Shown: positions 24,580 through 26,398 of the stretch, one piece after another
How the letters are laid out: the number at the start of each line of letters is the position of its first letter
Numbering within the stretch: the stretch's first letter is position 1
Assembly: GCA_023953905.1 (NCBI GenBank)
Contig: JAMLJA010000005.1
Coordinates: forward strand, 62,001-126,000
DNA from: Rhizobiaceae bacterium
Lineage (GTDB): Bacteria > Pseudomonadota > Alphaproteobacteria > Rhizobiales > Rhizobiaceae
DNA: 64,000 nt
Reading direction: 5' to 3'
Program-made: the position numbers and the translations under genes
The notes under the pieces: generated by a model
Told to the model about the DNA's origin: nothing
Databases searched by the model: none
Seen by the model: only the letters and a program-made list of their open reading frames with translations

Positions 24580-24808
24580 AAAACCAACTGACAACGCACT
24601 GTCAGGAGGCCGGGCGTCCGGCGCGGCGTCGATCACGTTTTATCGCGTCGGCTTGACCAAAACCTTCTGTGAGCGCAACATATCGTTGCGCTTTCGTTTT
24701 TGGCGGGTTCGCAAGATCCGATTTTGAGGCGGACGCGATTCTACTTTGAAAGCGCAACTATATTCTGGACGAAAGGATGAGGTATGACCCCGCCTGACAG
24801 TTCCACTA

Positions 24809-24890
24809 GGCTCCTCGAAATTTGAGGAGCCACGGCAGGCTGACATGATCACCATGTGATCTCGTCCTTTCGAGCCCTGCCGTTTCAAAT
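24809..24890 (+). ncRNA. Candidate small structured RNA (low confidence)
   Basis: Two consecutive hairpins, the second a multi-branched fold ending CCTGCCG followed by TTTC, as an intrinsic terminator might. No clear promoter was found upstream, and the strand is uncertain because the palindromes read in both directions. It is listed because this density of perfect stems in 80 bases is unusual in the window. Confidence 0.25.
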
Positions 24891-25030
24891 ACAATTAGAG
24901 ACCATAGTCGGATCGTCGGCTTTGCCGCGAAGCGTCCGAAATTTTGCGGGCTTTCCTGAGCCTGCCGTCGGGACAAACCCGTTGATGAAGCCTCGTGCCA
25001 AGTGACACGAGGCTTCTTGCGTAATTGTTA

Positions 25031-25345
25031 TTAGCGACGAGGGTTTGACTTCAGGTCGCCGATGTTCACGTCGATCGTGACGTCGCCGGAAATCCGCACA
25101 TCCGTATTCCCAATACGAAATGACCGTGGGTCCGAATCCGCATCCGACGGCTCCGGCTCAGGCGCTTTGACAATGGCTTCGGGCGTTTTGACGCCGGGCA
25201 GATCCATGTCCTCGGCATAGACGGCAGGACCCTGCACAATACTGAGCCCAGCAGCGAAGATGATAATCGGGGTCTTCATATGCTGGAGATAGGAAGAGAG
25301 AGCGAACCTCGCCACGGGATGATTGCGCAATGCGACAAATATCAT
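25031..25345 (-). CDS. Small exported protein coupled to arsR
   Basis: 104 residues if read from the ATG that overlaps the arsR stop (ATGA), or 82 from an internal ATG at 25279 that begins a clean signal peptide (MKTPIIIFAAGLSIVQGPAVYA). The mature part is acidic and Pro-rich, then ends in a beta-like segment (RIGNTDVRISGDVTIDVNIG). A secreted or periplasmic protein of unknown function. Its overlap with arsR means it is in the same autoregulated operon, so it is probably expressed in response to whatever ligand releases the repressor. Confidence 0.65.
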   Translation of the reverse strand: MIFVALRNHPVARFALSSYLQHMKTPIIIFAAGLSIVQGPAVYAEDMDLPGVKTPEAIVKAPEPEPSDADSDPRSFRIGNTDVRISGDVTIDVNIGDLKSNPRR

Positions 25346-25656
25346 CGTTCCAGTTCTTCCAACATGCGCCGAAGTTCCTGGATGCGATCGGGCCAGAAGA
25401 GCCGGTAGCGCTCAATCCAGTCTGACAGTGGCCCAAGAGCATCAGGTGCACTGCGGTAATAGGAAAATCGCCCGCTTCTCCTCTCCGTCACGAGCCCGGC
25501 CTCACGCAACACTGTGAGATGCTGCGAGATTGCAGGCTGAGAAACCGGCAGCGCCGAATGGAGATCGTTGACGGTCTGCTCCGCCTTCACCAGCCGCTCG
25601 AACACAGCCCTACGCGTAGGATCGGCCAGGGCGCGGAAGACGTCAGGACTGGTCAT
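25342..25656 (-). CDS. ArsR family transcriptional regulator
   Basis: 104 residues from ATG 25656 (a GTG at 25665 is possible). Winged-helix domain with MTSPDVFRALADPTRRAVFE, recognition helix QPAISQHLTVLREAGLV and wing ERRSGRFSYYR. It lacks Cys-rich metal sites such as CxC or ELCVCDL, so the ligand is probably not arsenic or cadmium. Two near-identical inverted repeats immediately upstream (25666-25700) strongly suggest autorepression. It is followed by an overlapping gene for an exported protein. Not to be confused with true ars operon regulators. Confidence 0.9.
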   Translation of the reverse strand: MTSPDVFRALADPTRRAVFERLVKAEQTVNDLHSALPVSQPAISQHLTVLREAGLVTERRSGRFSYYRSAPDALGPLSDWIERYRLFWPDRIQELRRMLEELER

Positions 25657-25665
25657 TGGAAACAC

Positions 25666-25681
25666 ATAAGTGCGGACTTAT
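25666..25681. promoter_or_regulatory. Operator 1 for ArsR regulator
   Basis: Perfect inverted repeat ATAAGT-GCGG-ACTTAT ending ten bases before the arsR ATG. The 16-bp shape fits the sites bound by ArsR/SmtB dimers. Its twin lies 19 bp further upstream centre to centre. Confidence 0.75.
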
Positions 25682-25684
25682 TGA

Positions 25685-25700
25685 ATAAGTGATCGCTTAT
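25685..25700. promoter_or_regulatory. Operator 2 for ArsR regulator
   Basis: Inverted repeat ATAAGT-GATC-GCTTAT, matching operator 1 at 11 of 12 arm positions. Tandem sites suggest cooperative repression of the arsR promoter. Confidence 0.72.
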
Positions 25701-25760
25701 CTTATCGTGCACACTTGGGAGTTCTGCAATCCCGATTGACACAAGATCGGGTGCCAATTA

Positions 25761-25775
25761 GAACAAAATGGGAAC
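25761..25775 (+). promoter_or_regulatory. SOS (LexA) box upstream of ssb
   Basis: Exact GAAC-N7-GAAC direct repeat (GAACAAAATGGGAAC), the LexA motif of Rhizobiales and relatives, about 100 bases before the ssb start. Divergently placed from uvrA, as in E. coli where uvrA and ssb are paired. Confidence 0.72.
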
Positions 25776-25876
25776 AAATGGCTTGTGGATAGCGGCAATC
25801 GTTTTTGCCGATGCCCGCAACAGCGCCATGTTTGGTGTAAGAGAAAGCTGATTTCGGACGAGCGCGGAGATTTCCC

Positions 25877-26398
25877 ATGGCTGGTAGCGTGAACAAGGTA
25901 ATTCTGGTCGGCAATCTCGGGGCCGACCCGGAGATACGTCGATTGAATTCCGGCGATCCCGTCGTGAACCTGCGCATTGCCACCTCGGAAACCTGGCGCG
26001 ACAAGAATTCTGGAGAACGCAAGGAAAAGACCGAGTGGCACAGCGTCGTGATTTTCAACGACAATCTCGCCAAGGTTGCCGAGCAGTATCTCAAAAAGGG
26101 CGCGAAGGTTTACATCGAAGGGCAGCTTCAGACGCGCAAATGGACCGACCAGCAGGGTCAGGATCGCTATACGACCGAGATCGTGTTGCAGAAATTTCGC
26201 GGCGAATTGCAGATGCTGGATGCGAGAGGCCAGGGTGGTGATAGCGGCAGTGTCGGATATTCCGGCGGCGGTCGCGGCTCGGATTTCGGTCAATCAGGCC
26301 CGAGCGAGAGCTATGGCGGTCGCGGCGGCGGCAATCGCGGCGGTGACGATCGTGGCGGCGGCTTCTCGCGCGATCTCGATGATGAGATCCCTTTCTGA
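25877..26398 (+). CDS. ssb: Single-stranded DNA-binding protein
   Basis: 173 residues. OB-fold in residues 1-115 ([60 protein letters not shown]). A Gly/Arg/Ser-rich linker of about 50 residues is followed by the conserved acidic tip DDEIPF, which recruits replication and repair enzymes. Coats single strands at forks and repair sites. Probably SOS-inducible through the box at 25761-25775. Convergent with marC across a hairpin. Confidence 0.97.

Follow-up and report, generated by a model that had tools for sequence, protein, structure and literature searches.

Genes for ArsR-type repressors that adjoin a gene of COG3832 (AHSA1/SRPBCC) form two-gene modules that have been predicted to be toxin-antitoxin-like, and the 2009 paper concerned describes this ArsR subfamily as lacking metal motifs (PMC2701414). 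The partners are SRPBCC proteins, i.e., START-type pocket proteins (PMC2577659; PMC2701414). The 2009 paper calls the ArsR-COG3832 pair strictly unique, and neither 'ClpP' nor 'Clp protease' occurs in its main text (PMC2701414). A COG3832-ArsR pair from Stenotrophomonas maltophilia (PMC7650669) is of the same two-gene type, with no ClpP mentioned; the pair showed no toxicity in kill-rescue tests, which argues against the parent operon being a true toxin-antitoxin system. Frankia gene groups likewise have ArsR adjoining AHSA1, a link left unexplained, but they belong to another phylum, and the passage on them does not mention ClpP (PMC4531530). As for proteolysis, one report places clpP2 and clpP3 of R. 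etli under positive regulation by (p)ppGpp in stationary phase (PMC3188799), and a figure showing toxin-antitoxin proteins as candidate substrates of Clp or the proteasome includes the M. tuberculosis ArsR-COG3832 (PMC8165232). ArsR-COG3832 pairs have been known since 2009; what we did not find described is a three-gene form with ClpP and its decay in the locus reported here. The open-licence PMC literature yielded no description of either (weak evidence of absence), and no paper treating ArsR and ClpP jointly with either SRPBCC or Mesorhizobium.

The locus lies in a window of 64,000 nucleotides (the whole stretch of DNA analysed, C38:62001-126000 of the 4.75-Mb genome labelled G000), and its features are collected in Table 1. 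It resembles the ArsR-COG3832 modules in having a repressor of the non-metal ArsR subfamily in a small, autoregulated-looking operon, and in its close relatives an AHSA1 partner overlaps arsR. It departs from the modules as published (PMC2701414) in that the AHSA1 partner is missing from the window and in that the relatives carry a third gene, for a dedicated ClpP. In our view the locus is likely to have arisen by deletion from an autorepressed arsR-SRPBCC(AHSA1)-clpP operon, with an orphan autorepressor left upstream of a gene for a small exported protein.

Table 1. Features of the arsR locus, in window coordinates
Feature	Position	Strand	Remarks
uvrA	24476 onward	minus	beyond exported gene
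Small exported protein, 82 aa	25031..25279	minus	signal peptide ending VYA/ED; conserved PEP...FRIGNTDVRISG motif; no Pfam/NCBIfam family
Junction in place of SRPBCC and clpP	25280..25341	minus	no significant remnant of either gene
ATGA overlap	25342..25345	minus	equivalent arsR-stop context holds SRPBCC start codon in relatives
arsR-type repressor gene, AHSA1/SRPBCC-associated subfamily	25342..25656	minus	104 aa from ATG 25656 (107 aa if GTG 25665)
Presumed -10, TTATGT	25664..25669	minus	7 nt before arsR ATG; inferred from aligned upstream regions
Operator 1 (downstream, nearer arsR)	25666..25681	none	ATAAGTGCGGACTTAT; arms 6/6; overlaps presumed -10
Operator 2 (upstream)	25685..25700	none	ATAAGTGATCGCTTAT; arms 5/6; right arm holds -35 TTGCTT in relatives
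Ancestral -35 position, here TCACTT not TTGCTT	25687..25692	minus	17-nt spacer; from aligned upstream regions
ssb	25877 onward	plus	divergent from arsR

The repressor and its operators

Membership of the repressor in the ArsR/SmtB superfamily was clear from Pfam, with HTH_20 at 50.3 bits (cut-off 27, 2.4e–13) and HTH_5 at 46 bits (cut-off 22, 4.8e–12). Its best NCBIfam match, at 90.7 bits (cut-off 55), was the broad model NF033788, 'metalloregulator ArsR/SmtB', and an ordinary metal-sensing repressor of this family would fit that label. The protein scores far under the equivalog cut-offs of the CmtR and BigR models, no metal transporter or ars gene lies beside arsR, and, as the preliminary description had noted for the typical metal-binding motifs, there is no Cys anywhere in the translation; judged on that absence, metal-binding Cys/His sites seem to be lacking. 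Since an ArsR subfamily next to COG3832 and devoid of metal motifs is already in print (PMC2701414), the missing Cys motifs are a known trait and give no clue to a new inducer, and we regard metal sensing as very improbable. SdpR (NCBIfam NF033789) offers another likeness, a non-metal autorepressor with an ArsR fold, and the window protein matches that model weakly, at 64 bits against a cut-off of 100, so that it falls outside the family. The partner of SdpR, SdpI, is absent here.

The arsR gene is an intact open reading frame that retains all 36 invariant columns of an eight-sequence alignment; its product is 73%, 64% and 63% identical to the orthologues of the same-genus genomes G001, G002 and G003, and dN to G001 is low (0.20) with dS saturated. 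Alignment with the orthologues makes ATG 25656, rather than GTG 25665, the probable start of translation, and the nearer operator then lies 9 bp upstream of it.

Two 16-bp inverted repeats before arsR, 19 bp apart start to start, were seen as described before, although to call them near-identical is generous: the arms are alike, but the centres differ and overall identity is 75%. The unit had been assigned the span 25342-25700, which takes in arsR and the operators but leaves the exported gene outside. A pattern search of the entire 4.75-Mb genome for ATAAG-N6-CTTAT returned only these two sites, both before arsR, and the reversed control pattern returned 0. With the looser TAAG-N6-CTTA the window again held only the two operators, against a mean of 0.09 in dinucleotide shuffles, none of 100 of which reached two. 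We discarded the idea of a wider regulon, as sites with one mismatch (17 per strand genome-wide, 15 besides the operators) were fewer than for the reversed control (52). Uniqueness in the genome without any such excess points to local regulation, so that a regulator binding this motif should act here only.

The motif is conserved with arsR well beyond the genus. It precedes arsR in 29/29 of the best family loci (29 of 30 were counted, L005 being left out), and of the 80 named loci, which are the best 80 of 551 confirmed with an ArsR alignment, 70 have TAAG-N6-CTTA within the stretch scanned upstream of arsR; elsewhere in these best 80 of 551 it occurred 0 times in 631,459 bases. Restricting attention to those among the best 80 of 551 that have clpP, 54 of 60 carry the operator, and the other six have, by eye, TAAG-N6-CTAA at the equivalent promoter position. 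These six (L097, L100, L111, L121, L123 and L126) are from four Achromobacter and two Bordetella, i.e., the three-gene operon occurs in Betaproteobacteria with an operator variant of one base. Pairs of operators at the 19-bp spacing also precede arsR in G001, G002, G003, G036 and G153. Two alphaproteobacterial MAGs (L104 and L131) have two TAAG-N6-CTTA sites 18 bp apart before an arsR-SRPBCC pair without clpP; paired operators thus exist outside clpP-type loci too. More distant arsR-SRPBCC pairs (L013, L014, L016-L018, L021-L023) have other upstream repeats, e.g., ATTAGC...GCTAAT or ATAACT...AGTTAT, which suggests a separate operator code for each ArsR subgroup.

Our reading of the promoter comes from cross-species alignment, as a sigma-70 consensus scan of 24900-25900 returned no promoter and no terminator. 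The common layout in aligned relatives is TTGCNN, a 17-nt spacer holding the operator, and TTATNN overlapping the right arm of the operator, with the arsR start codon ~7-10 nt further on; at orthologous arsR genes of other genera too the motif occupies the spacer between -35 and -10 and overlaps the latter. In G001, G002, G003, G036 and G153 the upstream operator supplies the TTGCTT that serves as -35. With the -10 so close to the ATG, a leaderless or nearly leaderless arsR transcript is likely. The substitution at the -35 position in the window makes its promoter look weakened, as far as the alignment allows such an inference.

The operators lie in the region between arsR and the divergent ssb, 176 bp before the ssb ATG, and could in principle serve both genes, with ArsR tuning the single-strand-binding protein. 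They overlap the arsR promoter, the ssb side has a LexA-like box of its own, and in other genera the operator goes with arsR, not ssb; we hold dual control to be improbable. The box, at 25761-25775 between ssb and arsR (GAACAAAATGGGAAC), fits GAAC-N7-GAAC, the form of the alphaproteobacterial LexA box, although this pattern often matches by chance (the window has 4, with 2.5 expected). A GTTC-rich sequence was seen by eye at the equivalent position in G001 and G002.

This anatomy gives good support to local autorepression by a non-metal ArsR. The earlier proposal was of an autoregulated sensor producing an envelope protein; its autoregulatory half stands, given operators on the promoter that are the only perfect matches in the genome and are kept in other genera, whereas the envelope output does not, as in 28 of the 29 closest loci the operators control arsR-SRPBCC-clpP.

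The arsR-SRPBCC-clpP operon in relatives

Among the family loci just mentioned, SRPBCC and clpP follow arsR in 28 of the best 29, the sole exception being the window. Among the named loci (best 80 of 551), SRPBCC lies directly behind arsR in 79, with Archangium (L088) the exception, and clpP comes next in 60. The AHSA1/SRPBCC gene overlaps arsR by ATGA in all close relatives examined; the SRPBCC proteins of G001, G002 and G036 exceed the cut-off of PF08327 (AHSA1), and the clpP product of G001 matches PF00574. Gene order is ssb, arsR, SRPBCC, clpP, uvrA in all three same-genus genomes; the exported gene separates clpP from uvrA in G001 and G003 and was not detected in G002. G036 has arsR, SRPBCC and clpP before uvrA. 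Nineteen of the best 80 of 551 named loci (Mesorhizobium and one MAG) combine ssb, SRPBCC, clpP and the exported gene, and uvrA is within reach in 17 of those 19. The unit also occurs on its own: 41 (35 + 6) of the best 80 of 551 have the three genes but lack ssb, uvrA and the exported gene, in genera that include Bradyrhizobium, Devosia, Bosea, Methylobacterium, Achromobacter and Bordetella.

The ClpP of this operon is not the housekeeping one. In a set of 61 genomes, 12 carried a second ClpP on the strand of the best arsR match, 368-563 bp behind it. An arsR match at E 1e–30 or better was counted by eye in 71 of 394 genomes, 69 of which had two or more ClpP matches; of the remaining two, the fragmented G113 had only a linked ClpP and G000 only an unlinked one. 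In a ClpP tree of 89 rows, one branch (support 100/99) separated 69 operon copies from the 20 others, which marks the operon ClpP as a distinct paralog.

In the uvrA-upstream stretch of 19 further genomes, ssb was near uvrA in all 19 and no arsR, SRPBCC or clpP match was found, and from this gene order the cluster evidently entered the ssb-uvrA interval in one lineage. Parsimony at the locus alone leaves the direction of change unfixed, and several family genomes have ssb adjoining uvrA with none of the cluster genes detected; the window might then be the ancestral arrangement, and the relatives would have gained SRPBCC and clpP between arsR and the exported gene. We find this scarcely credible at all, because the three-gene unit occurs apart from ssb, uvrA and the exported gene in many genera (the 35 + 6 loci among the best 80 of 551), which makes loss in the window far likelier than gain elsewhere, and because the operon ClpPs fall on one side of a fully supported branch. 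This wide distribution together with that branch indicates that the unit is older than the present locus.

Gene loss and the exported protein in the window lineage

By its closest relatives, whose arsR genes are followed by SRPBCC, the window arsR belongs to the subfamily of the ArsR-COG3832 modules, and it keeps two copies of the operator on its promoter. No SRPBCC lies directly behind it and no operon-clade ClpP is present; the only ClpP of G000 is on another contig and belongs to the housekeeping (solo) clade. On this comparison of gene content, SRPBCC and the operon clpP have been lost together in G000. Local alignment of the 63-nt junction with the G001 and G003 junctions was no better than with shuffles (p 0.06 to 0.99), so it yielded no remnant of either gene, and the exact deletion breakpoints could not be placed by this alignment. 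The 104-aa reading frame begins with codons that recall a ClpP C-terminus, a likeness that we considered and dropped.

Dating the loss by dN/dS was abandoned and only a relative-rate test was used, because dS was saturated (1.4 to 4.4, or not computable). With G036 as outgroup, 12 changes in arsR were unique to G000 versus 2 to G001 (p 0.008), and with Mesorhizobium 11 versus 2 (p 0.013); with G003 the excess was not significant (11:5, p 0.13). The comparison gene uvrA gave 21 versus 20, although it was itself faster in some comparisons (39:16, outgroup G002). Faster evolution of arsR in G000 than in G001 is suggestive, not firm. Together with the degenerate -35, it would suggest relaxed constraint on the orphan arsR.

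The exported gene had been taken to overlap arsR by ATGA. The ATG at 25345 that overlaps the arsR stop does open a reading frame, but it is doubtful as the start of the exported protein: homologues from two same-genus genomes and Mesorhizobium align from the ATG equivalent to 25279 (MKTPII...), directly before the signal peptide. The product is therefore probably of 82 aa from ATG 25279, without overlap, and the 104-aa form an extension of the reading frame. By comparison with relatives, the ATGA 'coupling' is the arsR stop context that there overlaps the SRPBCC start. Ten aligned homologues have in common a signal peptide (read by eye), an LPGV motif, PEP and, near the C-terminus, (F/I)(K/R)IG(N/D)T(D/E)V(R/H)I(S/G)G; the window protein, which is short and mostly linker, has the signal peptide and the conserved C-terminal motif of this operon-tail protein. 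Searches of Pfam and NCBIfam at E up to 10 gave no match, except that relatives had single weak ones (E 0.057 or more).

Between the exported gene and uvrA, at 24766-24945 on the minus strand, we observed a non-coding stretch conserved in five genomes (G000-G003 and G036), with an invariant TCGGA/TCCGA stem and a GGCTCC/GGAGCC hairpin, two pairs of which show compensatory changes. It had no Rfam match at the gathering score, and the covariation term of the whole-region consensus is unfavourable (+4.74), so that a structured RNA is only a possibility.

The pairing of repressor and exported gene might nonetheless now be functional, i.e., the repressor was rewired after the deletion and the unit works as an autoregulated sensor with the exported gene as its target. 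The two genes are adjacent on the same strand, operators and reading frames are intact, dN in arsR is low, and solo antitoxin homologues have been suggested, in the 2009 paper, as recruits for other regulation (PMC2701414). That arsR and both operators are intact and dN is low means that arsR may still be useful, which counts against our preferred explanation. Set against rewiring are that the pairing occurs in one genome only, that arsR is faster here and its -35 decayed, and that where relatives have the exported gene it lies behind clpP. In G019 its homologue, arsR and uvrA are on three different contigs (C5, C7 and C14, respectively), so the exported protein can do without the operon. A weak homologue in G033 (C12:1585-1839, E 2e–5, 38%; not recovered by tblastn) lies between ssb and uvrA, in a stretch without an arsR match. 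We rate a rewired sensor as unlikely, and keep the deletion derivative as the preferred reading.

Proposed regulation and significance

For that deletion derivative, anatomy and conservation would be explained as follows. ArsR dimers would bind the two operators and so cover the arsR promoter, operator 1 filling the -35/-10 spacer and overlapping the -10, and operator 2 covering the -35; bound ArsR would block RNA polymerase, and the repressor would thus limit its own transcription. In relatives the same transcript would carry SRPBCC, the START-like pocket protein, and the dedicated ClpP paralog, both made upon release of ArsR, with the exported gene following clpP in Mesorhizobium and in some genomes of the window's genus. 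Since SRPBCC is a START-type pocket protein, a hydrophobic ligand is a fair guess, by analogy, as the signal of the parent operon. For the window lineage, comparison shows that SRPBCC and clpP were removed from between the arsR stop and the exported gene; the orphan ArsR probably still binds its operators, and could control only itself and perhaps the exported gene.

A broader scheme, which we put forward tentatively and would not call probable, is that the parent is a three-gene stress module spread over Hyphomicrobiales and Alcaligenaceae. SRPBCC would deal with a ligand or a damaged protein, which would lift repression by ArsR and so turn on a specialised ClpP, one whose targets might include ArsR itself. 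The window genome would then be a natural knock-out of both effectors, its orphan repressor rewired or being rewired to the exported protein.

The window locus is a modest one, and the parent operon is the more interesting object. The analysis corrects a plausible but misleading single-genome reading, in that a deletion brought regulator and exported protein together, and it draws attention to an ArsR-SRPBCC-ClpP operon that is widely conserved, has a ClpP clade of its own and shows a clear operator code. That operon offers a handle on what ArsR-AHSA1 modules sense and on why many Hyphomicrobiales keep extra ClpP subunits, and the window genome provides a natural comparison without both effector genes.
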